Shown here: one piece after another, positions 188 to 54,851 of the stretch
Position numbering within the stretch: position 1 is the stretch's first letter
Layout: the number at the start of each line of letters is the position of its first letter
Origin: a virus
IMG/VR virus record: IMGVR_UViG_3300027733_001467
Span: 1-54,851 of that record
Strand: one strand, 5' to 3'
Length of the DNA stretch: 54,851 bases
The notes under the pieces: generated by a model
The model's input: the letters and a program-made list of their open reading frames with translations, nothing else
What the model was told of the DNA's origin: nothing
Databases searched by the model: none
Translations under genes and position numbers: made by a program

Positions 188-310
188 ATGGGAACAAAAC
201 CTAAAAAGAAAAGAGCAATGAGAAGCGTTAAGTCTGGAGTTAAGACTGCAGAACTAATAAAGCAAAATCAAGAAATATTAAATAAATTAAAGAATGATAT
301 CTCTAACTAA
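188..310 (+). CDS. Small basic protein, 40 aa
   Basis: An ATG two bases after the preceding stop opens a 40-residue frame ending at TAA 308-310. The first half is strongly basic (MGTKPKKKRAMRSVKSG) and the second half could form one amphipathic helix (LIKQNQEILNKLKN). The next gene starts inside it at 294, a 17-base overlap, which fits translational coupling. The lysine/arginine content would suit a DNA-associated or packaged peptide, but no family is recognised. The call rests on its tight placement in the operon and on the in-frame neighbours. Confidence 0.55.
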   Translation: MGTKPKKKRAMRSVKSGVKTAELIKQNQEILNKLKNDISN

Positions 311-731
311 ATTATTAAAAGAAGATGAGTATGTAGACCAAGCCTACAAACTTGGTGATACTCCAACTGATAATCCAATTGATGATTATGATGAATTGGA
401 TGTTGAGCAAGAAGATATGGATGATTTCATAAACTTCTTAAAAGGTTATTCAACTCAATTGGAAGAAGCAAATTGTAATTGTGTTTATGAAGCAGAATAT
501 CAGGGTAGAGAAGTGAAGTTGGGTAAACCAATGCAAGGTGATGTTAAGAAGTTTAAGGTATATGTAAAAAATCCTAAGACTGGTAAAATTATTAAAGTAA
601 ACTTCGGACAAAAAGGAATGAAAATTAGAAAATCAAATCCTGCTGCTAGAAAATCATTTAGAGCAAGAATGAATTGTGATAATCCAGGTCCTAGAACAAA
701 GGCAAACTATTGGAGTTGCCGTAAGTGGTAA
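294..731 (+). CDS. Conserved modular phage protein with L-x-E leader
   Basis: This 145-residue protein starts MISLTKLLKE-D, a leader like those of the genes at 736, 1041 and 6797 that ends in L-x-E, the recognition form of T4-type prohead proteases. An acidic stretch (about residues 12-45) is followed by a basic module (about 70-145) with a KVYVKNPKTGKIIKV strand pair and a C-terminal R-x-N-C-D-N-P-G-P ... Y-W-S-C motif. I recall that last module from T4-like phages of marine bacteria, where its function is unknown. Four cysteines (two near residue 60, two near the end) could bind metal. A packaged head protein is my inference; only the motifs are seen. Confidence 0.8.
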   Translation: MISLTKLLKEDEYVDQAYKLGDTPTDNPIDDYDELDVEQEDMDDFINFLKGYSTQLEEANCNCVYEAEYQGREVKLGKPMQGDVKKFKVYVKNPKTGKIIKVNFGQKGMKIRKSNPAARKSFRARMNCDNPGPRTKANYWSCRKW

Positions 732-735
732 TTAT

Positions 736-1044
736 ATGATTAAATTAAAAAATATATTAAACGAATTATCTCCAGTTGGTAATATGAATGCTCATGGCGC
801 ATCAAAGGTATTAGGTAAGGGTGGAAAGGTTTTAGGATTTGTAGCAGATACTCCAAACGCTATAGCAACTTTGATACAAGAATATCCAAATGTTGAGGCA
901 ATAGAATTCAAAATGCCATTTTCATTTGAACGCAAAACATATAAAAAAATAAAAAAAGGTGATGCTGCTTGGAAAAAATTGATGGATAGATATATTGATA
1001 ATTCAACAAAAGCAATACTAAAAAAAGATTTTCAATTAAAGTGA
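736..1044 (+). CDS. Small phage protein with L-x-E leader, 102 aa
   Basis: The frame is open from 676, but the start at 736 is chosen because it lies just after the upstream stop (731) and gives the N-terminus MIKLKNILNE, matching the leaders of neighbouring proteins. The rest is a small alpha/beta-looking domain of about 90 residues with a basic C-terminal half (KRKTYKKIKK-like content) and no recognised family. Its stop TGA overlaps the GTG start of the next gene (GTGA), implying coupled translation. It may be a capsid-targeted internal protein cut after LNE; that is inference from the leader and the presence of a gp21-type protease at 51481. Confidence 0.75.
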   Translation: MIKLKNILNELSPVGNMNAHGASKVLGKGGKVLGFVADTPNAIATLIQEYPNVEAIEFKMPFSFERKTYKKIKKGDAAWKKLMDRYIDNSTKAILKKDFQLK

Positions 1045-2267
1045 TACAACTAACTAACATATTAAACGAAGACCTCCGTAAATGGTTTGGTAAGGGTGGT
1101 GCTGGTTCATCTACTGGTGGGGGATGGGATAGATATAATTCACAGGGAAAGAAAGTAGGTAAGTGTGGTGATAGTAAAGATGGTTCAGCATACGCAGCTT
1201 GTTTATCAAAAGAGAAAGCAGCAAAGTTAGGACCTGATGGTAGAGCATCATTTGTTAAAAGAAAGAGAGCTGCACAATCTAAAGCAGGTGATAGTAAAAA
1301 AGGTGGTGAACAATCTAAAGGACAGAAACCAACATTTGTAAAGACGGGAGCTAGTGAAGGATTGGAAGAAAAGTGGAGTTCAAAATATAAGAAATCAATT
1401 AATTGTAGTAACCCAAAAGGTTTCTCACAAAAAGCACATTGTGCTGGTAAAAAGAAAAATGAAAGTATGACAATAGAAGAAAAAATGGAATTGTTCTTAG
1501 AAAAGAATGTTCCTACTGACCCGGCAAAATGGGCAGCATCTAAAGCAGCAGCAAAAAGAAAATTTGATGTGTATCCATCAGCCTATGCAAATGGTTGGGC
1601 CGCAAAAAATTATAAAGCTAAAGGTGGTGGATGGAAGGTAGCTAAAGAAGGTGTACAAAATAACATTGATGAGGCTATAAACCCAGAAGTATTTAGAGAA
1701 TTTATGCAAGCATGTAATGATGCTGGATTAAACTCATTTCAAATATTTGGAATGCATGTATTGGTATATATTTTAACATTAGGGGCAACCGGTTTAACTA
1801 TTTTATCAGCATTGGGAATTGCACAATTAGCAAAAGATGCAAAAGATACATTTAATAATTGGAATGCTGGTAGAAAACTAAACCCAGAAAAAGTTAAAGC
1901 AATAGTTAAAGATTTTGAAAATAAAGTAAATAAACTAGAAGGTGGAAGGAAGAAATTTTTTCAAGGTATTATAAATAAAATGAAAAGAACAAATCCAGAG
2001 AATAAATCAGCATTGGTATCTATTAATAAAGATTTAGAACATTATGCACATGCATATGGTATTAAAGAAGAAAGTGTTATCAAAGAAGTAGAAGTAGGAC
2101 AGGGACATGAGAACGATAGAGATATGGTTGTAGGTGTTGCAGAAATACTTCGTATGGTAGATGATATGAACAATAGAAAGGAAATAGCAGAAGCTATGTT
2201 ACGAAAATTTAAATCAGAAGATGTTATACATAATGCAAAAGAGTTTATGACACTTTGTGGCATTTAA
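1041..2267 (+). CDS. Multi-module packaged-type protein, 408 aa
   Basis: The GTG start at 1041 overlaps the previous stop and is supported by the leader MIQLTNILNE. Modules follow in order: a GGGWDRYN...GKCGD...LSKEKAAKLG basic module (about 20-104; similar to a family I recall as DUF5872), a KKSINCSNPKGFSQKAHC cysteine module (about 115-140), a DPAKWA...KFDVYPSAYANGW module (about 155-195), a hydrophobic helix pair (about 236-264), and a helical C-terminal domain ending in a REIAEAMLRKFKSED-like motif. These modules recur in different combinations in phage proteins, and their role is unknown. A G·T-tolerant hairpin terminator follows at 2288. The leader suggests head targeting, and the hydrophobic segment could contact a membrane after ejection; both points are inference. 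Confidence 0.8.
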   Translation: MIQLTNILNEDLRKWFGKGGAGSSTGGGWDRYNSQGKKVGKCGDSKDGSAYAACLSKEKAAKLGPDGRASFVKRKRAAQSKAGDSKKGGEQSKGQKPTFVKTGASEGLEEKWSSKYKKSINCSNPKGFSQKAHCAGKKKNESMTIEEKMELFLEKNVPTDPAKWAASKAAAKRKFDVYPSAYANGWAAKNYKAKGGGWKVAKEGVQNNIDEAINPEVFREFMQACNDAGLNSFQIFGMHVLVYILTLGATGLTILSALGIAQLAKDAKDTFNNWNAGRKLNPEKVKAIVKDFENKVNKLEGGRKKFFQGIINKMKRTNPENKSALVSINKDLEHYAHAYGIKEESVIKEVEVGQGHENDRDMVVGVAEILRMVDDMNNRKEIAEAMLRKFKSEDVIHNAKEFMTLCGI

Positions 2268-2287
2268 TAATAATTTAATAATACCAT

Positions 2288-2312
2288 AACCCTCATTTAA
2301 CAATGGGGGTTT
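2288..2312 (+). terminator. Hairpin terminator after the first operon
   Basis: A 10-base-pair stem (AACCCTCATT / AATGGGGGTT, one G·T pair) with a 4-base loop lies 20 bases after the stop of the 408-residue protein and is followed by TTATTATTTAT. The loop and G-run resemble the terminator at 24261. Confidence 0.75.
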
Positions 2313-2314
2313 AT

Positions 2315-2322
2315 TATTTATA
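2315..2322 (+). promoter_or_regulatory. TATTTATA motif, candidate late promoter
   Basis: TATTTATA lies directly after the terminator and only three bases before the ATG at 2326. The same motif precedes many transcription units in this window. If it acts as a -7/-10 element, the transcript would be nearly leaderless. Confidence 0.35.
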
Positions 2323-2325
2323 CCT

Positions 2326-3021
2326 ATGAAAGATTTACTAACTATTGTAATCCCTTGTAAAAACGAAAATGAAAACATATATGAATGTATTGGATTTATT
2401 GCAAAGCAAGTGGGATTTGGTGGAACTAAAGTTATTATTGCAGATACTTCCGATAACGAAGAATCTATATGGTGGTTATGGAAAGCCCAAAACGAATACA
2501 AATACTCACTAAACATAGAAGTAATAAAAGGTGGGTTTCCTGCTAAGGCAAGATTAGACGGAAGTAAATTAGTAACCACTCCTTACATTCTTTTTTTAGA
2601 TGCGGATATAATGTTATTAAACAAATTCGTATTAGGTGAATGTTTGGCATACAATACTGATTTGGTAACTGTACCATTTCAAACCGAAGTAGGATTCAAT
2701 TGGATATTTAGATTGTTTGATATTCAACAACGATTAAGTAATTGGTTAGCAACACCATTTGCTATTGGTGGATTTCAATTGTGGAAAACCGAAGCATATT
2801 GGAAAACTGGAGGATACGATGAAACACATATGTTTGCAGAAGATTATTGGGTTTCACAAAAAGCAGAAAGTATGAAGATACACAAAACAAAAGGTGTATG
2901 GACATCTGCAAGAAGATTTAAGAACAAAGGATTTTTCTATATGTTTTTATTAACTATAAAATGCTACATAAACCGAAACAACGCAGAGTTCTTCAAACAA
3001 CATCACAATTACTGGATATGA
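2326..3021 (+). CDS. Family 2 glycosyltransferase
   Basis: The 231-residue product has a GT-A glycosyltransferase fold signature. It opens with LLTIVIPCKNENENI, has a nucleotide-sugar binding half, and carries a DxD-type metal site at D92-A93-D94 (FLDADIM). A second half contains FAIGGFQLWKTEAYWKTGGYDE, typical of GT2 acceptor regions, with E-D at AEDYW. These enzymes move a sugar from a nucleotide donor to a glycan or lipid. The gene overlaps the next by ATGA (3018-3021), so the two are probably translated together, which links it to envelope or glycan modification. The sugar and acceptor cannot be read from sequence. Confidence 0.85.
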   Translation: MKDLLTIVIPCKNENENIYECIGFIAKQVGFGGTKVIIADTSDNEESIWWLWKAQNEYKYSLNIEVIKGGFPAKARLDGSKLVTTPYILFLDADIMLLNKFVLGECLAYNTDLVTVPFQTEVGFNWIFRLFDIQQRLSNWLATPFAIGGFQLWKTEAYWKTGGYDETHMFAEDYWVSQKAESMKIHKTKGVWTSARRFKNKGFFYMFLLTIKCYINRNNAEFFKQHHNYWI

Positions 3022-3761
3022 AATATCAAGCAATTATAGTATCTGACTTACACTTGGGAATCAAAGATAGTAAGGCGGATGAGTTTATAGAATTCTTAGA
3101 TGAACACCCAACCGACCTCCTTATTCTTAACGGAGATATAATTGATGGGTGGGCTTTAAATAGAGGAGCTAAGTGGAAGAAAAAACATACTAAAGTTATT
3201 TCTAAAATATTAAAGTTATCTAACAAAACACAAATAATTTGGATAAGAGGAAACCACGATGAATTTATACAAGAGTTTATCGGAACAAATTTTGGACACA
3301 TTGAAATTAAAGAAGATTATGTACTTAATACAAAAACTTGGGTGGAGGGTGATTTATTTAGGAATGAGAGGTATTACGTTTTTCACGGAGATGTTGTGGA
3401 TGTTTTTATAACTAAATACAAATGGTTATCTAAGATAGGTGCAATTGGATATGATTTTGCACTATGGCTGAATAGAGTTTATAATGGATATCGTAAATGG
3501 AGAAAGTTACCTTACATATCAATATCGCAAAAGATTAAAGCAAGTGTTAAAGTTGCAACCAATTATATAAACGATTTTGAAACAACGGCCCTATCAATGG
3601 CCCACAAAAAAGGATGTAATGGGGTGATTTGCGGACATATTCATCAACCGGCGGATATAATGATTAACGGAGAAAGATATCTCAATAGTGGGGATTGGAT
3701 TGAGAATATGAGTGCCATTTTGGTAGATTATGACGGTAAGTTATATTTATACCAAAGATAG
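3018..3761 (+). CDS. LpxH-like calcineurin-family metallophosphoesterase
   Basis: The start at 3018 (ATGA overlap with the glycosyltransferase stop) is preferred over an upstream in-frame ATG at 2961, because the protein then begins directly with the first metal motif. The 247 residues carry the full set: D10-x-H12 (SDLHLG), G39-D40-x-x-D43, G78-N-H-D-E82, HGD near 120 and G206-H-x-H209. This is the dinuclear metal site of calcineurin-like phosphoesterases. The layout is closest to UDP-2,3-diacylglucosamine hydrolase (LpxH), which removes UMP in lipid A synthesis. The true substrate is unproven. The context, a glycosyltransferase before and exported proteins after, suggests envelope chemistry. 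Confidence 0.85.
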   Translation: MKYQAIIVSDLHLGIKDSKADEFIEFLDEHPTDLLILNGDIIDGWALNRGAKWKKKHTKVISKILKLSNKTQIIWIRGNHDEFIQEFIGTNFGHIEIKEDYVLNTKTWVEGDLFRNERYYVFHGDVVDVFITKYKWLSKIGAIGYDFALWLNRVYNGYRKWRKLPYISISQKIKASVKVATNYINDFETTALSMAHKKGCNGVICGHIHQPADIMINGERYLNSGDWIENMSAILVDYDGKLYLYQR

Positions 3762-3765
3762 CACT

Positions 3766-4593
3766 ATGAAAAATATATTATTCTTATTGGTATTATTACC
3801 AACACTAGCTTTCTCACAAGTTAGTAGCTGGAGAACAACAACCCCTCAATCAGCACAAACATCACAATCAACTCAAACAAGAGTTCAACCATCCATACCA
3901 CAACAACAAAATGATGTAAGTAAGTGGAGAACACAAACTGCACCAATTAGACCGGGTGATAACTTTACCGGTCAACCTTTAGTACGAAGATATAGACCTA
4001 CAACATACAATCCTTATGGTTTACAATATGGTATATGGGGATGGTATCAACCTTATCCTTACATTTGGTATGATAATTATGGATGGAGACAAAGAAGTGT
4101 AGTTCGTATTTATGAAAATGGAAGGAGAGATACAATAGTAAAGAAGCCTGTAAAATTCACTATTGGTATTGGTAAAACAAATAATAGACAAGCTGCATTT
4201 TGGGGAACTATTAGTGGTAAGAAAGGATATTTCATTATGGATTATGTAATGACTTATGATATAGATAGAAATGATTATTATCCTTATGGTAATCTTGCTA
4301 TTGCAGATTTCCCTGTTAGTAAAGAGATATTCACAAAAGAACATACTCTTTATTTAGGAGCTGGTAAGAGATTCAATAAATTAGGAGTACATACAATGAT
4401 AGGATTTGGTAATGAGATTCAAAGATATCAGGGCAGAGATGCTATTGGTGGTATTTCATTTCCTAAATCAAATATAAATTTTACAACAATTAAACTTGGT
4501 GCAGTTAGAGATTTCAAATGGTTTACTTTGAAATTTGATACTGACCCAATAAGAGGTTATTCACAATTGGGTATTGGGTTGAATAATTTTTAA
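3766..4593 (+). CDS. Exported outer-membrane-like protein
   Basis: The start at 3766, four bases after the preceding stop, gives a clear signal peptide (MKNILFLLVLLPTLAFSQ) with likely cleavage before Q or V; the in-frame ATG at 3730 would bury it. A Q/T/S-rich stretch (about 20-70) with two similar SxWRTxTxP segments leads to a Y/W/P-rich region and then about 150 residues of alternating strands ending in aromatic Phe (GIGLNNF). A C-terminal Phe is typical of outer-membrane beta-barrels. The mature protein has about 257 residues. The stop overlaps the next start (TAATG). It may alter the host surface, for example to block superinfection; that is inference. Confidence 0.75.
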   Translation: MKNILFLLVLLPTLAFSQVSSWRTTTPQSAQTSQSTQTRVQPSIPQQQNDVSKWRTQTAPIRPGDNFTGQPLVRRYRPTTYNPYGLQYGIWGWYQPYPYIWYDNYGWRQRSVVRIYENGRRDTIVKKPVKFTIGIGKTNNRQAAFWGTISGKKGYFIMDYVMTYDIDRNDYYPYGNLAIADFPVSKEIFTKEHTLYLGAGKRFNKLGVHTMIGFGNEIQRYQGRDAIGGISFPKSNINFTTIKLGAVRDFKWFTLKFDTDPIRGYSQLGIGLNNF

Positions 4594-6110
4594 TGAAAAA
4601 ATACATATTAGGATTTCTTTTAGTAATGTTTTGCCAAATAGCAATGGCGCAAACTTATACACAAACTTATAAGGACAAATGTACTGGTGAAATTAAGGTG
4701 GCCACTACAACAATGGTAAACGGATTCGCAACGGTATCATTCTACAATCAGATAAGAGTATTCTCACCAACCGAAGTAATGGCTGGAGCAGTACAGGTTT
4801 GGATTACAGCAACTTACGCAGCTTTCAACACATTAGCATGTCCTACGAATGTAGTAGTTCAGCAAACGGTACAAAACACAGTATCTCAAGCGGCAGCAGC
4901 TGCAGCAGCCGCAGCGGCACAAGCAGCAGCTGATGCAGCAGCAAAAGCAGCGGCAGATGCGGCAGCAAAAGCAGCGGCAGATGCGGCAGCAAAATCAGCA
5001 AGTTCATCTGCTAGTGGTGCGGTTAGTTCATCAGCATCAGCGGCAGCTAGTTCATCAGCAACTGCGGCAATTCCACCACCACCAACGGCACCTCCACCAA
5101 CGGCATCAGCCCCTCCACCGCCATCAAGTAGTAGTTCTACCCCACCACCGGCTTCCTCATCAGGAAGCAGTAGTTCTGGAGGTTCTGGGAGCAGTTCTGG
5201 TAGTGGTTCATCTTCATCTACGGAAACAAAGACTGAAACCAAAACGGAGACTAAGACTGAATCAAAATCCGAATCAAAAACGGAAAGTAAGACTGAAGAA
5301 AAGAAAGAGGAAACTAAATCAGAAAGCAAAAAAGAAGAAAAGAAGGAAGAGTCTAAAGAGGAGAAAAAAGAAGAGTCTAAAGAAGAAAAGAAAGACGAGA
5401 AAAAAGAGGAGAAGAAGGAAGAAAAGAAAAAAGAGGAAAAAAAGAAAGTAGCAGCTAATCCAATGATGTTAGCTAGTGATTTGGCTGGTACGGAAGATGC
5501 GGAAGGTAAATACGCTGTAATGATGAGTGTGGGTGTATCTAAATCATCGTTAATGGGAGATAAATCATATTCAGCTACCGCACTTATTTGGAGTACCCTA
5601 AACCAATTTGCTTTAAGTGGTGGTATTACAAAGATGGATTTTGAGAACGGACAATTAAACGCAATACATTCATACGGAACTACATTTGCATATCTTAAAG
5701 GAACTCTAATGAACCTTAACGGATACACTTGGATTAAACCTCACCCTAAATACGGAACATTTGGATATAATGTGGGTGTAATTACTTTAATGATGGAAAA
5801 CGCAACAACTGGTGGATATGATATAAGTTTAAGTTCATCTTTGGTAGGATTTTGGATGAAACCATTTCCTTATAGTAGAAAAGTAACCCTAACTCCGCAA
5901 GTATTCGTAATGCAATCTCCATTGGCTTGGAATACGGTGACTGGTGGAAGTACTGTAAGTAGAATACCGGGAGCAATGGTAGGACTGGGATATGATTACA
6001 AATTAAGTAAAAGATTTGGATTTTCAGCATCATATAAAGCAGCAATGTCCTTTGGTGATAGTTTTTCCCTATTGAATAATATCCAAATCGGGTCAAAAAT
6101 GATATTTTAG
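4593..6110 (+). CDS. Outer-membrane barrel-like protein with low-complexity stalk
   Basis: The 505-residue product starts with a signal peptide (MKKYILGFLLVMFCQIAMAQ). A small domain with two cysteines (about 20-85) follows, then an alanine-rich segment with AADAAAKA repeats (about 95-145), a Ser/Pro-rich segment (about 145-205), and a Thr/Lys/Glu then Lys/Glu-rich segment (about 210-285). The C-terminal 215 residues alternate polar and hydrophobic positions, contain many Gly/Tyr/Trp and end in Phe, as outer-membrane barrels do. The stalk codons are repetitive and locally GC-richer than the neighbours. The gene overlaps the preceding exported protein gene by one base. The stalk may span the periplasm or reach the wall; function unknown. 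Confidence 0.75.
   Translation: MKKYILGFLLVMFCQIAMAQTYTQTYKDKCTGEIKVATTTMVNGFATVSFYNQIRVFSPTEVMAGAVQVWITATYAAFNTLACPTNVVVQQTVQNTVSQAAAAAAAAAAQAAADAAAKAAADAAAKAAADAAAKSASSSASGAVSSSASAAASSSATAAIPPPPTAPPPTASAPPPPSSSSSTPPPASSSGSSSSGGSGSSSGSGSSSSTETKTETKTETKTESKSESKTESKTEEKKEETKSESKKEEKKEESKEEKKEESKEEKKDEKKEEKKEEKKKEEKKKVAANPMMLASDLAGTEDAEGKYAVMMSVGVSKSSLMGDKSYSATALIWSTLNQFALSGGITKMDFENGQLNAIHSYGTTFAYLKGTLMNLNGYTWIKPHPKYGTFGYNVGVITLMMENATTGGYDISLSSSLVGFWMKPFPYSRKVTLTPQVFVMQSPLAWNTVTGGSTVSRIPGAMVGLGYDYKLSKRFGFSASYKAAMSFGDSFSLLNNIQIGSKMIF
4926..4997 (+). repeat. Three 24-bp tandem repeats (AADAAAKA)
   Basis: Three adjacent in-frame copies of a 24-base unit (positions 4926, 4950, 4974) encode an alanine-rich octapeptide with one Asp and one Lys. 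Copies two and three differ only near the end. The unit suits a long alpha-helix and would allow length change by slippage. Confidence 0.8.
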
Positions 6111-6120
6111 AATAAATCAA

Positions 6121-6128
6121 TATTTATA
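6121..6128 (+). promoter_or_regulatory. TATTTATA motif, candidate late promoter
   Basis: TATTTATA sits 19 bases before the ATG at 6148 in a 37-base gap between two exported-protein genes. It belongs to the recurring set listed in this window; there is no clear -33 TTTG. Confidence 0.4.
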
Positions 6129-6147
6129 CACACAAATCAAATACATT

Positions 6148-6795
6148 ATGAAAAAATTGTTGAACTTTAAGAATATAGCAATCGCAGCATTGATTATATT
6201 CGTTTTATTGGAGTGGTTTAACCCAGGTGGAGTTATGCCAGGTAAGAAAGTATTCATAGCTGGTAAAGCATATGAAGTAATTAAGCACGATATTGATACT
6301 ATTGATATTGTAAAGACTAAAGTAGTAACTAAAAAAGGTGAAGATATCTACCATGAAACAATAGTAGAGAAAGAAGTAATCATTCCAGCGGTAATCGATA
6401 CAGCTGCATTATTAAAAGATTATTACTCAAAAGTATTATACAAAGATACATTAGTTTTACCTGATTCATTGGGTATTGTTGCTTTAAATGATACTATTTC
6501 ACAAAACAAAATATTAGGTAGAACTTTCAACGCAAGTGTTAAACAAAGAACTATCAAAGAAACTACAATTGTAAAAGAATTACCTAAAACTAAAATATTC
6601 TATGGTTTAGAAGGTGGATTTAATAAAGCAGATTTTGTAAGTTCAGTAGGAGCTGGTGTTTTAATCAATACTAAGAAAGATAAGATATACCAATTAGGTT
6701 TAGGTGTTAATAATAAAACAACCGATGGTACAAATGGTGGATTCACTCCATATATTAGAGGTGGTGTTTATTGGAAAATTAAATTAAAGAAATAA
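6148..6795 (+). CDS. Membrane-anchored protein with extracytoplasmic strand-rich domain
   Basis: A single hydrophobic segment (about residues 10-24, IAIAALIIFVLLEWF) near the N-terminus is flanked by lysines on the inside, so the remaining 190 residues probably lie in the periplasm. Residues 45-85 are rich in Val/Thr/Lys alternation, a middle stretch (about 85-125) may be helical, and the end has glycine-rich strands (GLEGGFN, GAGVLINT, GGVYWKIK). There is no lipobox. Known phage families with this build include Bacteroidota lysis or envelope proteins, but I cannot match one. It follows the two outer-membrane-like genes and is probably co-functional with them. Confidence 0.65.
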   Translation: MKKLLNFKNIAIAALIIFVLLEWFNPGGVMPGKKVFIAGKAYEVIKHDIDTIDIVKTKVVTKKGEDIYHETIVEKEVIIPAVIDTAALLKDYYSKVLYKDTLVLPDSLGIVALNDTISQNKILGRTFNASVKQRTIKETTIVKELPKTKIFYGLEGGFNKADFVSSVGAGVLINTKKDKIYQLGLGVNNKTTDGTNGGFTPYIRGGVYWKIKLKK

Positions 6796-6796
6796 G

Positions 6797-7069
6797 ATGA
6801 TAAAGCTTACTCAATTAAACGAAGCATCTGAAGTAAAATTCAAAGAGCTAAAACCTATTCAACAAAAACAGGTTGTGGCATTTCAAAAAGTAATTGGTGC
6901 AGACCATTCTCAAATTTTTGCTGGTATTCACGGAATGGTTGTAGATATCCCAGCAAGAGGCAATTTTGGAACTGGTTATCGTTTTGGAGCTGATACTCTT
7001 AAAAAATTATTAGCATTAAAAATTCGTTGGGTTGAAGCAGATGGTGATGTAATTTCAATAGGATTCTAA
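6797..7069 (+). CDS. Small protein with L-x-E leader, 90 aa
   Basis: The protein begins MIKLTQLNE-A, matching the leaders at 294, 736 and 1041 and fitting a prohead-protease cut after LNE. The remaining 81 residues form one small domain with a PIQQKQVVAFQKVIG helix and a glycine-rich middle (ARGNFGTGYRFG), ending DGDVISIGF. No family is recognised. It starts one base after the upstream stop and its own stop abuts the next ATG (7070), so it is part of the same message as the Ntn-hydrolase-like gene. Packaging into the head is inferred from the leader only. Confidence 0.75.
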   Translation: MIKLTQLNEASEVKFKELKPIQQKQVVAFQKVIGADHSQIFAGIHGMVVDIPARGNFGTGYRFGADTLKKLLALKIRWVEADGDVISIGF

Positions 7070-7885
7070 ATGAAACTTTCAGAGTGCATAATCGTATCTA
7101 AAGAAATTAAAGATAAGTTTATTCTAGCTAAAAATAGAGATAGAGCTTATAATCCATCTTTAGAAATCGTACATACTATCATTGATGGTGTGGAAGTTGC
7201 ATATCTACATGATTTAATAACGGATTGGAGTGAGGGTTTAAACGAAAACGGAATTGGTGTTGTAAACTCAGCATTACTAGTTGGACACGATGAAGCTGAG
7301 GCTAAGCTTGTAAAAAAAGCTGGTAAACCTGGGCCTGATGGTGATAAGATGAGAAACATCATTAAGCAACCTACTCTAATTGATGCAGTAAGAGCTGCAC
7401 TTAAATATAAGGGTAAGAGTGGATTATCTCTTAAAGGTCATACATTTGTATCATCTCCAAAACATATGGTTAGTATTGAAACTACATCAAAGCATAAGCC
7501 TGATGTTAAACTTCAAAACTCCGAATCACCTGTTGTTCGTACAAATCACGGACATATGTTCACAGATGCTGGATATACAAGCGGTGAGAAATACCTAAGT
7601 TCAAAAATGAGAAAAATATCAGCAGAGAAATCGGTTGATAAAGTAGAGGATTGGAAAGCAATAGCACAGGCTATGAGAAAAGAATACTTTCCAAAGAAAC
7701 CTCAATTGAATATGAAAAGAGATACGGAAGAAATGTCTACATCATCTCAAACTGTAATGAATCTGACAGACCGTATATTACAAATAACTTACTTTAAGGG
7801 TAAGGTAAACGAATTCAAAGGTATTAATAGGAAACTACCTGAAGGATATCAACCAAAGATTACAATTGAAGTAATCCCAGTTTAA
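7070..7885 (+). CDS. Ntn-hydrolase-like acylase, possibly activated by prohead protease
   Basis: The 271-residue product begins MKLSE-C6 and continues with a strand, then AKNRD (residues 20-24). A cysteine followed about 16 residues later by an RN-x-D type motif is the start of the linear-amide C-N hydrolases (penicillin V acylase / C45 / choloylglycine hydrolase group), in which a freed N-terminal Cys is the nucleophile. The segment NENGIGVVNSALL fits the 'G-N-E-x-G-L' strand of that group. The short propeptide ends L-S-E, the form cut by gp21-type proteases, so maturation could expose Cys6. Substrate unknown; the family call is moderate, and activation by the protease is inference. Confidence 0.65.
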   Translation: MKLSECIIVSKEIKDKFILAKNRDRAYNPSLEIVHTIIDGVEVAYLHDLITDWSEGLNENGIGVVNSALLVGHDEAEAKLVKKAGKPGPDGDKMRNIIKQPTLIDAVRAALKYKGKSGLSLKGHTFVSSPKHMVSIETTSKHKPDVKLQNSESPVVRTNHGHMFTDAGYTSGEKYLSSKMRKISAEKSVDKVEDWKAIAQAMRKEYFPKKPQLNMKRDTEEMSTSSQTVMNLTDRILQITYFKGKVNEFKGINRKLPEGYQPKITIEVIPV

Positions 7886-25544: not shown

Positions 25545-25958
25545 GTGAGCTGGAAATTTAATGGAAATATTGTTACAGAAGAAACCACACCAGAAGGTGC
25601 GGTTGGATTTGTCTATAAGATAATTGATACTAGAACTAATAGATTCTATATAGGAAAGAAATCCTTATCTCAAACCCGTAGATTGAAACCCCTTAAGGGA
25701 AAGACTCGTAGGAGGGTTGTAAAGAAAGCATCTGATTGGGAAAAATACTACTCATCAAACGAATGGATTAAATCGGAAGTAAAAGCTGGAAACGCTGAAT
25801 ATTTTGAAAGAGAAATCATTCAATTTTGTTTCTCAAAAAAATCCTTATCATATTACGAAATAAAATGGCAGTTTCATTACGATGTCCTTGCCAACGAACA
25901 AGCAATAAACGAAAACCTTATGGGAAAATTCTTCCGTAGGGATATTATAAACCCATAG
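25545..25958 (+). CDS. GIY-YIG-like nuclease
   Basis: The GTG start lies immediately after the previous TAA. Residues 20-40 read GFVYKIIDTRTNRFYIGKK, matching the two strands of a GIY-YIG nuclease (G-F-V-Y for GIY, F-Y-I-G for YIG). A basic stretch (about 45-60) and the helix FEREIIQFCFSKKSLSYYE (about 88-106) with a conserved-type Glu follow, then a basic end. At 137 residues it is one compact domain with no DNA-binding extension, unlike typical homing endonucleases. T4 endonuclease II (DenA), which degrades host DNA, is also GIY-YIG, so host-DNA attack or a repair role are options. The metal-binding residues are not fully confirmed. Confidence 0.65.
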   Translation: MSWKFNGNIVTEETTPEGAVGFVYKIIDTRTNRFYIGKKSLSQTRRLKPLKGKTRRRVVKKASDWEKYYSSNEWIKSEVKAGNAEYFEREIIQFCFSKKSLSYYEIKWQFHYDVLANEQAINENLMGKFFRRDIINP

Positions 25959-42688: not shown

Positions 42689-45091
42689 ATGAATGAATTA
42701 TCAAATTTTTTAGTAGAATCAATATTATTGGAAGCGGCCTCTATAAACAAAGTAATTGTTGTTTATTCTGGCCGCTTTCAACCTTTTCATAAGGGCCATT
42801 ACGCAACTTATGATAATTTAGTACGCAAATTCGGAAAGGATAGTGTGTATATCGGAACTTCTAATGTTACCGATTCAAAGAAATCTCCATTTAATTTTAA
42901 AGAGAAGAAAGCAATAATGACAAATATGTTTGGTATTCCATCAAACAAAATTGTCAATATCAGAAATCCCTATGCACCTGAAGAAATTCTAAATAAATAC
43001 GATGAAGATACAACTGGTTTAATAGTTGTAGTTGGTGAGAAAGATGAGCAAAGACTTGGTGGTAAATATTTCACACCATATAAAGGTAAAGTAACTGAAC
43101 CTTTTTTAGATAGAGGATATGTTTATGCAGCACCAGCAGAATCAAACCCAATTAGTGGTACTGATGTTCGTTATTGGTTAAGTGCTGGAAGTGCTGCTGA
43201 TAGAAAGAAAAACTTTACAAAAGCATATCCTAGATTTGATGACCAAATATTCAAATTAATTACCCTTAAGTTAAAGAGTTTAAAAGAATGTATTAATGAG
43301 GAAATTAAAATAAATGTAAAAATTGGAGATACTATTCTAATGGGTAGATTTAAAAATAAAAAAGTAGTTGTAAAAACAATAGGTACAGATGATTGGGGAA
43401 TGCCAACAATCAATGGTAAGAAGGTAGCAACATTTAGAATTCCAAAAAAAGATAATTTAAAAGAAATGGGACTTGGTGGCGGAGCTGGTGTAGGTTTAAG
43501 TTTACCGGGTGGATATATTAATGGAGCACCTGATAGTAAAGATGTTAAGAAGAATAGCAAAAAACTTAACAACAACGGAATGAGTGGATATGAGGAGATT
43601 GATGAAGAAAATAACATTTTAGAATACACTGGAAACGAAGCGTTTGATAATGATACGGGTGGCACTACTGGACACACTTGGAATAAAGATTGGGAAGAAT
43701 ATGATAAAGCTGAATATTATTTAGAAGATTTAGAAGGTTGGGAAAATATGAATCATAAGAGTGATAAAGATGACAAAATAAGAAAAAACAAAGTTCCAAT
43801 TTTTAATCACGACGATACAACTGATAAATACAATCGTATATTAAAGCATGATTTAAAATCTCCTAATGATTTTATAAAAGAATCATTAATAATGGAAGGT
43901 GGAGCTTATGGACATATGGCACATCCATTTGATATTGAGATGGGTTTAACATTTGGTGACCTTAAACAAATAGTAGTAAGAGCTCTTAATGGTGATTTGG
44001 AATTAGCAAGAGAAAAGACTGATGGGCAGGCATTGGCAATTAGTTGGGTAAATGGTAGATTGGTTGCAGCTCGTAATAAATCTCATTTAAAAGATAAAGG
44101 AGTTGGTGCTATGACAATAGGACAGGTAGCAGATAAGTTTGCTGGTAGAGGTGGATTAACTGATGCATACAATTTCGCTATGCAAGATTTATCTAAAGCA
44201 ATTGGAGCCCTATCCGAACCTCAACGTAAGAAGGTTTTTAACGATGGTAGTTCGTTTATGAACTTGGAAGTAATATATCCAACGTCTGTAAATGTAATCC
44301 CTTACAATCAACCCCTATTAGTATTTCATGGTACATTTGATTATGATATGACTGGTACTATAATTGGACAAAATCAAGACGCAGCAAAAGTATTAGGTGG
44401 AATGATTAAGCAAGTAAATGCACACGTTCAATCCAAATATACAATACAGGGACCTCCAATGCAAACACTTCCTAAAACCGAACATCTTTCTAAATTACAA
44501 GGAAAGTATTTAGGAATGATTTCTAAACTACAATCTGAATTTGGATTAGCTGACTCTGATGGTGTAGCAGATTATCACCAAGCTTGGTGGACAAATTTTG
44601 TAGAAAAGGGAGCAAAGAAATTGGATGCACAGCAAAAGATAGGACTAATTAAAAGATGGGCTTTTGGAGATAAAAGCTTTCGTATAGCGGATATAAAAGA
44701 TGATAAGATAAGAGCTTGGGCTGACCAAACAGATAAGCAAGACCAACAAAAGATATCAAAGCAAAATTTAATGAGATTTGAGGAAATATTCTTAGGTGTG
44801 GGAGCAGATGTATTATCATTTATGACATCAGTATTAACTGCAAATCCTGCAGAAGCTACTAAACAAATGAAAGCAAAATTACAAAGTACAATATCGCAAG
44901 TAAAAGCAAGTGGTGACCCTAAAAAGATTGCAAAACTTAAATTAGAATTAAGTAGAATGCAGGCTTTAGGTGGATTTGATAAAATCGTACCAAATGAGGG
45001 ATTGGTATTTGTATATGGTGGAAACACCTATAAACTAACAGGTGCATTCGCACCCCTAAATCAAATTTTAGGCATATTTTTTGATTCTTAA
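42689..45091 (+). CDS. Fused HxGH nucleotidyltransferase and ligase-like enzyme with L-x-E sites, 800 aa
   Basis: The leader MNELSNFLVE-S precedes a nucleotidyltransferase domain (about 20-190): SGRFQPFHKGH with H34-xx-H37, and ISGTDVRYWL, the S-x-T-x-x-R signature of NMN-adenylyltransferase-like enzymes. A linker (about 195-405) contains further L/I-x-E sites (CINE-E, LIME-G). The C-terminal domain (about 405-800) has the covalent nucleotidyltransferase plan of ligases: K443-T-D-G (motif I), FMNLE527 (motif III) and E770-G-L-V with YKL (motif IV/V). Similar C-terminal domains occur, as I recall, in marine T4-like phages. It may act on NAD or RNA ends. Packaging into the head and cleavage between domains are inference. 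Confidence 0.75.
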   Translation: MNELSNFLVESILLEAASINKVIVVYSGRFQPFHKGHYATYDNLVRKFGKDSVYIGTSNVTDSKKSPFNFKEKKAIMTNMFGIPSNKIVNIRNPYAPEEILNKYDEDTTGLIVVVGEKDEQRLGGKYFTPYKGKVTEPFLDRGYVYAAPAESNPISGTDVRYWLSAGSAADRKKNFTKAYPRFDDQIFKLITLKLKSLKECINEEIKINVKIGDTILMGRFKNKKVVVKTIGTDDWGMPTINGKKVATFRIPKKDNLKEMGLGGGAGVGLSLPGGYINGAPDSKDVKKNSKKLNNNGMSGYEEIDEENNILEYTGNEAFDNDTGGTTGHTWNKDWEEYDKAEYYLEDLEGWENMNHKSDKDDKIRKNKVPIFNHDDTTDKYNRILKHDLKSPNDFIKESLIMEGGAYGHMAHPFDIEMGLTFGDLKQIVVRALNGDLELAREKTDGQALAISWVNGRLVAARNKSHLKDKGVGAMTIGQVADKFAGRGGLTDAYNFAMQDLSKAIGALSEPQRKKVFNDGSSFMNLEVIYPTSVNVIPYNQPLLVFHGTFDYDMTGTIIGQNQDAAKVLGGMIKQVNAHVQSKYTIQGPPMQTLPKTEHLSKLQGKYLGMISKLQSEFGLADSDGVADYHQAWWTNFVEKGAKKLDAQQKIGLIKRWAFGDKSFRIADIKDDKIRAWADQTDKQDQQKISKQNLMRFEEIFLGVGADVLSFMTSVLTANPAEATKQMKAKLQSTISQVKASGDPKKIAKLKLELSRMQALGGFDKIVPNEGLVFVYGGNTYKLTGAFAPLNQILGIFFDS

Positions 45092-51480: not shown

Positions 51481-52077
51481 ATGAAAGGACTTTTAATAGA
51501 AACAAAATTATTTGAGGGAAAAGTACAAGAAGATGAAGGTGGAAGAACCATTGTTAAAGGTATTCTACAAAGAGCTGGTGCTGAAAATCAAAACGGAAGA
51601 ATTTATCCGAAAGAAATCCTAATGAGAGAAGCTAAGAAGTATGAGGTATTCATTAAAGAGCGTAGAGCATTAGGTGAATTAGACCATCCGGATTCTACTG
51701 TAATTAACTTAAAGAATGTTTCTCACAATATTAGAGAGATTCATTGGGACGGTGATGATTTATGTGGAACTGTTGAAGTTCTATCTACTCCATCTGGTAA
51801 TATCTTAAAAGAATTATTGAAAGCTGGTATCCTATTAGGTATTTCATCAAGAGGTATGGGTTCTACTCGTAACTTATCTGGAAACAAAGTAGAGGTACAA
51901 GAAGATTTTGAATTGATTGGTTGGGATTTTGTATCTAACCCATCTACACATGGTGCATTTATGGTACCTGTAAACGAATCGGTTAATAGAGGTTTACAAC
52001 AAATAGGAACTGATGTTTGCGGAGACTTCTGTAAAGCACAAGACTTAATGAGAGAAATAATAACTGAAATAGCATAA
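51481..52077 (+). CDS. gp21: Prohead core protease (gp21-like)
   Basis: The 198 residues match T4 gp21-type proteases (U9/S78 family). The NGRIYPKE entry (about 38-45), the catalytic His H69 in GELDH69P, and the serine in GIS122-S123-RG form the active site, with a WDFVSNPSTHGAFM end. These enzymes cut head proteins after (L/I)-x-E. Its own N-terminus has KLFE-G at residues 9-13, a likely self-cleavage site. It sits between core-type genes and ahead of scaffold and major capsid, the T4 order. Its presence supports reading the many L-x-E leaders in this window as cleavable head-targeting peptides. Confidence 0.93.
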   Translation: MKGLLIETKLFEGKVQEDEGGRTIVKGILQRAGAENQNGRIYPKEILMREAKKYEVFIKERRALGELDHPDSTVINLKNVSHNIREIHWDGDDLCGTVEVLSTPSGNILKELLKAGILLGISSRGMGSTRNLSGNKVEVQEDFELIGWDFVSNPSTHGAFMVPVNESVNRGLQQIGTDVCGDFCKAQDLMREIITEIA

Positions 52078-53660: not shown

Positions 53661-54779
53661 ATGGCAAGTTCAAAATTGTTGAAAGAAGCAATTGCTGATG
53701 CTAAAGCTGTACGTGAAACTGCTATCGCTAATGCTAAAATCGCACTAGAAGAAGCATTTACTCCTCGTTTACAATCTATCTTATCTCAAAAATTACAAGC
53801 CGAAATGGAAGGTGATGAAGAAGATACGGAAGATGCAGTAAATGAAGATAATGATACTTCAAGTGAAATAGCTAAAGGTGATAACAAACAACCTGCAGAT
53901 AAAGCAAATTCAGCACAAACTGACCTAAGTGGAATCTCTAAACAATCTGGTGAGCCAGGTAGCGAAGGTGAAGAAACTAAAGTTAAAGACCTTACTGAAG
54001 GCGAAGATGAGTTTGGTGCAGAAGAAGAAATTCCTGCAGAAGAACCAGCAGCTATGGAAGGTGAAGACATGGCTCCAGAAATGGACATGGATGCAGATGA
54101 CGAAGATGAGTTAGATTTAGAATCTATCATCAGAGAGTTAGAAGCACAAATCGCAGGTGAAGAAAGTGAGGAAGAAATTCCTGCTGAAGCACCAGCTATG
54201 GAAGGTGAAGAAGCGCCGGTTGAAGAACCAGTAGCAGCTGAACCAACTGAAGCACCAGCAGTAGAGGGTGAAGACCCAGCTATGGCTGATGATGAAATTG
54301 ACTTAGACGAGATTCTAAGAGAAATGGGATACGGAGAAGATGAAGCTGAAGAAGAAAAAGCTGACGATGCAACTGAAACTCAGGCTAAAATGGAATCATT
54401 ACAGTCTGAATTAGAAGAAGCATTAGCAGTAATTAAATCTTTAAAAGGAACAATCAACGAAGTAAACCTTTTAAACGCTAAATTACTTTACACAAACAAA
54501 TTGTTCAGAAGTTATAACCTAACTAACGAACAAAAAGTTAAAGTTGTAGAAAATTTAGACAGAACTTCTAACGTAAGAGAAGTTAAATTAGTTTACGCAA
54601 CACTTTCTGAATCAATGAAATTCACAGGAACTGAAAGAAAAGTAGCTCAAGTTAAAAAGAACATTACCGAAGGTATTGCTTCTAAGGCTCAAGCTTCAAC
54701 AGCTCCTAAAAAAGAAATTATTTCTGAAAGTAATGAATTAGCAAATCGCTTTAAGCAATTAGCTGGTATCATAAAATAA
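53661..54779 (+). CDS. gp22: Prohead scaffold/core protein (gp22-like)
   Basis: The 372 residues start MASSKLLKE-A, an L-x-E leader, and are helical and basic at first (ETAIANAKIALEEAF). A long acidic, Glu/Pro/Ala-rich middle (about 50-240) with repeated AMEGEE and EEIPAE units follows, then a helical C-terminal third (about 245-372) with LNAKLLYTNKLFRSYNLTNEQ, which matches the conserved end of T4-like scaffolds. Sites such as LTE-G and VNE-D fit removal by the prohead protease. T4 gp22 has 269 residues, so this one is longer, mostly by the acidic middle. It lies directly before the major capsid gene. A weak AAGGAA precedes the start. Confidence 0.88.
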   Translation: MASSKLLKEAIADAKAVRETAIANAKIALEEAFTPRLQSILSQKLQAEMEGDEEDTEDAVNEDNDTSSEIAKGDNKQPADKANSAQTDLSGISKQSGEPGSEGEETKVKDLTEGEDEFGAEEEIPAEEPAAMEGEDMAPEMDMDADDEDELDLESIIRELEAQIAGEESEEEIPAEAPAMEGEEAPVEEPVAAEPTEAPAVEGEDPAMADDEIDLDEILREMGYGEDEAEEEKADDATETQAKMESLQSELEEALAVIKSLKGTINEVNLLNAKLLYTNKLFRSYNLTNEQKVKVVENLDRTSNVREVKLVYATLSESMKFTGTERKVAQVKKNITEGIASKAQASTAPKKEIISESNELANRFKQLAGIIK

Positions 54780-54803: not shown

Positions 54804-54851
54804 ATGGCAAATTTTGATTTAAGCAAACTTATGGAAGGCAAGAACCCACAA
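54804..54851 (+). CDS. gp23: Major capsid protein gp23, 5' end only
   Basis: The ATG at 54804, after an A-rich leader without Shine-Dalgarno, gives MANFDLSKLMEGKNPQ before the window ends. The position right after the scaffold gene is that of gene 23 in T4. L-M-E-G at residues 9-12 fits a prohead-protease cut. Only 16 residues are seen, so the assignment rests mainly on gene order. Confidence 0.7.
   Translation, partial: MANFDLSKLMEGKNPQ

Follow-up and report, generated by a model that had tools for sequence, protein, structure and literature searches.

Capsid-targeting leaders with gp21 processing in T4, and the removal of propeptides from ejected proteins in SPN3US, are already known. The targeting leaders of T4 are 10 residues long and gp21 cuts after L/I-X-E, with targeting depending mainly on leader residues 4 and 7 and processing on residues 8 and 10, and such leaders have been proposed as the means by which T4-like phages could load a variety of proteins (PMC9026906). 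In SPN3US the site is A-X-E, and the identified cuts give N-terminal propeptides, except for the protease's own C-terminal cut (PMC10052503). The stretch analysed herein, a 54,851-base IMG/VR virus record (the window), derives from a large tailed-phage genome, of which it is one part, and encodes unrelated proteins with short N-terminal leaders ending in (L/I)-x-E, an S77 (gp21-type) prohead protease, and a predicted N-terminal nucleophile (Ntn) hydrolase at 7070, whose leader, MKLSE, stops exactly ahead of Cys6. From sequence, structural modelling and analogy with T4, we consider it probable that these belong to a capsid-cargo system resembling that of T4, with a prohead protease that would in addition activate a packaged amidase-like enzyme. 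The features concerned are as follows, with a slash marking the presumed cut.

294-731, plus strand: leader protein MISLTKLLKE/D (leader 294-323); C-terminal part of PHROG 7595
736-1044, plus strand: leader protein MIKLKNILNE/L (leader 736-765); body without relatives in the fetched loci, hence without a conservation test
1041-2267, plus strand: leader protein MIQLTNILNE/D with a GTG start (leader 1041-1070); chain of cargo domains
6797-7069, plus strand: leader protein MIKLTQLNE/A (leader 6797-6823); small conserved protein
7070-7885, plus strand: Ntn hydrolase with a choloylglycine/AT/NAAA-like fold (predicted), 271 aa
7070-7084, plus strand: leader MKLSE of the Ntn hydrolase
7085-7087, plus strand: Cys6 codon, the predicted N-terminal nucleophile once the leader is removed
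51481-52077, plus strand: S77 (gp21-type) prohead protease (Pfam PF03420), the presumed processing enzyme

As with IPI-IPIII and Alt of T4, the window combines a short (L/I)-x-E leader, present on unrelated and variable proteins, with an S77 protease in the same genome; unlike them, its leaders are worded MIxLx..(L/I)xE, and the proteins bearing them are candidate virion components. Two further differences from the T4 internal proteins are that cutting would lay bare a catalytic Cys at the N-terminus of one cargo, and that fused cargo chains carry sites between their domains. The ejection and inner-body proteins of SPN3US and phiKZ are similar in that they too belong to large phages and have their propeptides removed by a gp21-related protease, but where SPN3US has A-X-E sites and mostly N-terminal cuts, the sites here are (L/I)-x-E and include internal junctions. 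With regard to precedent, no description was found in the open-access literature, most subscription papers being outside the scope, either of a prohead protease creating the nucleophile of an Ntn hydrolase or of chained cargo whose domains have such sites between them. Both the predicted exposure of a catalytic Cys by cleavage of the 7070 protein, which is the strongest point, and the junctions between fused cargo domains were absent from the first-pass annotation of this DNA.

Amongst 101 distinct phage relatives of the 7070 protein (start codons were read by us, and one row starts at a contig edge), the Cys is invariant and is directly preceded by (L/I)xE in 94 and by Met in the remaining seven. 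The leaders are about 4-12 residues long and have little else in common, as is evident from MKLSE, MINE, MNKLINE, MKKDILINE, MPQLFDRIILGE and MTSANNNEFLNE. When mapped onto a tree built from the mature parts (52 rows), the leader and Met/Cys forms require four changes, at least three of which are forced by well supported branches. P1 is Glu in all 45 dereplicated leader forms, with zero changes on the tree, whilst P3 changes nine times, between Leu and Ile only, and nine different residues occur at P2, which changes 19 times; as read from these sequences, the pattern ahead of the Cys is the published gp21 rule. Since one form offers a cut site and the other a Met for Met aminopeptidase, every relative has a way to free its Cys. 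Two Met/Cys phages (G010 and G011) also have S77, and thus the leader tracks the protein rather than the mere presence of the protease.

Structural prediction for the 7070 protein used 29 phage sequences as AlphaFold2 input, with the Chryseobacterium rows left out, and gave a model with a mean predicted local distance difference test score (pLDDT) of 85, falling below 50 only at residues 1-4, and a predicted template modelling score of 0.87. Its structural neighbours are isopenicillin N acyltransferase, NAAA, acid ceramidase, choloylglycine hydrolases and penicillin V acylase (Foldseek E-value 9e-9; VIA-align Z 16-20.5, the highest over 222 residues with a root-mean-square deviation of 3.2). 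Alignments from model residue 6 pair with residue 1 or 2 of mature penicillin V acylase or bile-salt hydrolase, or with the start of the NAAA beta-chain, that is, with the nucleophile Cys. Family invariants include C6, NRDR (22-25), TDWSEG, N66, RTNHG and R217, a layout that we take to resemble the Cys/Arg/Asp/Asn/Arg set of choloylglycine/AT/NAAA-type hydrolases. The protein is thus predicted to be an Ntn hydrolase of the alpha-beta-beta-alpha fold, and its nearest structural matches (NAAA, acid ceramidase, bile-salt hydrolase and penicillin V acylase) point to an N-acyl amide as the bond attacked. Whilst it shares the fold and the position of the N-terminal Cys nucleophile with choloylglycine hydrolase, penicillin V acylase, AT, NAAA and acid ceramidase, it is only 10-19% identical to them, and its Cys follows a head-protease site (94/101) or the start Met (7/101) where known Ntn hydrolases have a pro-domain or signal peptide. 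Sequence searches of the PDB with the protein and with its profile returned nothing real, and two pattern scans of 84,980 bacterial and archaeal genomes, which distant relatives could escape, found no cellular relatives of the hydrolase.

The L-x-E N-termini that the first-pass annotation listed for eight proteins are all present in the translations. Of 48 window proteins, 12 have the bare motif (L/I)xE with its Glu at residues 4-15, where 6.2 would be expected (p = 0.016), and in the Chryseobacterium phage MA9V-1 it lies near 20 of 92 protein starts, with 11.8 expected; such a count, only about twofold enriched, is by itself too weak as evidence. The longer form M(I/K/L)xLx(1-4)(L/I)xE is found on four of the 45 window starts, where 0.04 would be expected, although this count is post hoc. 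In three related genomes of 266-289 kb, fetched after the motif had been defined, the search of relatives that the annotation had proposed found the leader far over chance, at 9 of 380 starts (0.37 expected, p = 2e-10), 10 of 368 (0.32 expected, p = 2e-12) and 4 of 315 (0.22 expected, p = 7e-5), compared with 7 of 3,870 internal Met residues in the same genomes. A few of the long-leader hits are probably chance matches. The 24 MIxL leader proteins of the window and these genomes comprise 17 mutually unrelated bodies (BLAST E-value 1e-3), and leader genes can be closely grouped, as are five of them between 140,085 and 143,151 in one relative (G012). Most leaders are 9-10 residues long. Orthologues of the 6797 protein retain MI(K/R)Lxx(L/I)NEA; its structure model is reasonable, yet has no PDB match below an E-value of 0.5. 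In MA9V-1 the wording differs and the ending is the same (MRDFFINEA, MKNFFSFINEA and MKTFTCFINEA), and SEFINEAAPKGG lies close to the N-terminus of the protein that follows the protease.

Other leader proteins are enzyme-like, namely an AAA_33/zeta-like kinase and a 5' nucleotidase-like protein. The AAA_33/zeta-toxin-like kinase (L287:8045-8797, minus strand, in G011), a candidate packaged enzyme, has the leader MISLKEIIKGILSE/G, and the protein adjoining it begins MISLKEIIYEVLNE/V. A second, longer class of leader, approximately MKLSxLRQ(L/I/M)IREEVxxV(L/I)xE followed by A or G, is found on several proteins of one lineage (L185, L193 and L198).

Several cargo genes appear to encode chains of domains. 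The 1041 protein harbours sites at LNE10/DLRKWF, LEE110/KWSSKYKK (codon ending at 1370) and IKE349/VEVGQGHE (codon ending at 2087), the latter two at domain borders. Its second segment is a separate leader-bearing protein in L182 (MIKLTDIINE/KWSQKYKR), as is its last segment in L097 and L021 (MIKLSSLINE/VEVGQGHE). Conversely, the 6797 protein is free-standing in the window and fused in L084, L003 and L104, as GAKVESINE/ASE(I/V)KF, and in G013, as ESTLNE/ASEIS. Across 43 distinct internal copies of leader-bearing domains, which are of 11 body types and are not independent because many source phages are closely related, the exact boundary carries Glu in 38 and (L/I/V)xE in 32; at the other offsets tested (L/I/V)xE occurs 0 to 5 times, the value of 5 reflecting a second Glu four residues upstream.

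These junctions also bear on the explanation that the leaders are ordinary N-termini, their (L/I)xE arising from chance, translation or helix-capping. The roughly twofold enrichment of the bare motif would fit this, as would the enrichment of some other (L/I)xX motifs at protein starts. It is, however, highly improbable, given that the specific leader is 18- to 31-fold over expectation in three independent genomes, that Glu is invariant across the dereplicated Ntn leaders with P2 variable, and that the same boundary is found within fused proteins, away from any N-terminus.

The preferred reading is that the leaders would bring unrelated accessory proteins into the prohead core by a T4-like route, and that the S77 protease would trim them during head maturation, separating chained cargo domains at like sites between them. 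Ntn hydrolases require a free N-terminal Cys nucleophile, and the leader would therefore hold the 7070 hydrolase inactive in the producing cell; its removal would free Cys6, turning the enzyme on in the maturing head, and the active hydrolase would be carried in the virion to the next host. On the sequence evidence, the enzyme is probably active only once within the new virus head. That leader removal makes the nucleophile, tying activity to head maturation, and that the longer cargo genes encode polyproteins cut into payload domains in the head, is a combination that we favour with some reserve. Sequence or prediction gives the leaders, the pattern of their sites, the gene for the protease, the Ntn fold, the conservation and the junctions; packaging, cleavage, activity and injection are what we infer from these.

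A number of points weigh against this scheme. Many Ntn hydrolases expose their own nucleophile by autoproteolysis, and the self-cleaved propeptide of Bacillus subtilis PurF likewise ends in Glu ahead of the nucleophile Cys. The main rival is thus that the hydrolase strips its own leader, in the manner of NAAA, acid ceramidase and isopenicillin N acyltransferase, with S77 uninvolved in the 7070 protein, and it is in keeping with the self-processing of the close structural relatives. It would leave unexplained both the Leu/Ile at P3 with a free P2 and the widely differing lengths and sequences of the leaders; non-Ntn proteins, moreover, carry the same type of leader, and residues 1-4 are unplaced in the AlphaFold2 model. 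On these grounds we judge autoproteolysis improbable. Also adverse to the proposed activation by the head protease is that Pfam AAT (PF03417) matches 7 of 29 family members below its cut-off (best E-value 0.0033), with the window protein itself unmatched. Val, rather than Leu or Ile, occupies P3 in half of the 32 good internal junctions, rendering cutting there less sure, and no published virion proteomics was found for these phages, MA9V-1 having only a sodium dodecyl sulphate-polyacrylamide gel (PMC10537231). Lastly, the 7070 leader, at five residues, is shorter than the 10-residue T4 targeting sequence, and by that analogy may not suffice for complete targeting of the T4 type. Because MKLSE is so short, a mixed case is possible in which another signal packages the 7070 protein and the LSE site serves activation only.

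With regard to genomic context, the gp21-family protease that the first-pass annotation placed at 51481 is borne out by Pfam (PF03420, Peptidase_S77; window 51508-51981, E-value 8.4e-29, 95.5 bits against a cut-off of 27). Relatives of the 7070 protein lie on contigs of 169-289 kb and in the Chryseobacterium phages MA9V-1 (213.5 kb) and MA9V-2, beyond which no isolated phage with such a hydrolase was found (an Eggerthella phage at an E-value of 0.3 was not counted); these isolates point to a Bacteroidetes host for the window phage. S77 was found in both isolate genomes and in eight of the nine IMG/VR contigs that have a 7070 homologue and measure 100 kb or more. In MA9V-1 the prohead protease lies within a 1347-aa protein, with the S77 match near its N-terminus only (L222:38502-42545; MA9V-1 126501-130544).

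The window has baseplate-like and fibre-like genes in its middle, and its right end runs from TerL through portal, core proteins and the S77 protease to scaffold and the first part of the capsid gene. The corresponding genes of L199 (G012) follow one another as TerL, 294-like, portal, 49337-like, core genes, S77 protease, 52080-like, 52628-like, Ntn hydrolase, core-like, scaffold and capsid. In this 266-kb relative the 7070 homologue thus lies in the head-assembly cluster, with the protease on one side and the scaffold on the other, whilst the hydrolase of L195 and L177 lies immediately upstream of the terminase genes. G013 resembles L199 in that its relative of the 294 protein, a leader protein, sits between TerL and portal, and the 6797 homologue and two further leader proteins lie between protease and capsid.

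The presence of some leader genes amongst head genes would suit the view that leader proteins are scaffold or core components, cut up and lost in head maturation rather than delivered, as would the observation that T4 core proteins are cut and mostly cleared from the head (PMC9026906). We regard this as doubtful for the cargo as a whole, as the 7070 protein is an enzyme fold with a presumed N-terminal cut only, further leader proteins resemble enzymes, and the bodies vary between phages, fitting accessory cargo rather than scaffold. For two of the annotated proteins the payload reading fails: those at 53661 and 54804 are scaffold-like and major capsid proteins, whose sites belong to ordinary head maturation. 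What stands of that reading is a modular leader with the gp21 consensus on unrelated proteins, enzymes included. The remaining features are listed below.

42689-45091, plus strand: cytidylyltransferase-like protein MNELSNFLVE/S; sites LVE10 and LLE15 (ILLE15/A) precede the domain
53661-54779, plus strand: scaffold-like head protein MASSKLLKE/A
54804-54851, plus strand: major capsid gene start MANFDLSKLME/G; the contig ends 16 codons in

The major capsid proteins G011:73077, G012:254155 and G013:140738 have LLDE61/AT in common, a candidate maturation site whose position is near that of the 65-residue propeptide of T4 gp23. The cytidylyltransferase-like protein, of 800 aa in the window, extends to about 1500 aa in relatives (G012 230859-234326; G013 123643-128151; G011 86407-90879), only its cytidylyltransferase-like part having an assignment. 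Elsewhere in the window, the protein at 4593-6110 has a signal-like N-terminus followed by alanine-rich and Lys/Glu-rich low-complexity stretches, and a small protein at 25545-25958 has a GIY-YIG-like stretch (GFVYKIIDTRTNRFYIGKKS), recognized by eye only.

The isolates MA9V-1 and MA9V-2 bear the same kind of leader, and the proposed scheme is therefore testable by ordinary virion proteomics, with the Met/Cys relatives as natural controls. If the scheme is true, the leader would offer a rule by which effectors packaged in the head could be predicted from sequence in large phages, most of whose proteins have no assigned function. An injected enzyme would then be packaged and activated in a single step, and this would account for the way in which a phage can keep back, until its particles are complete, an enzyme possibly harmful to phage production.
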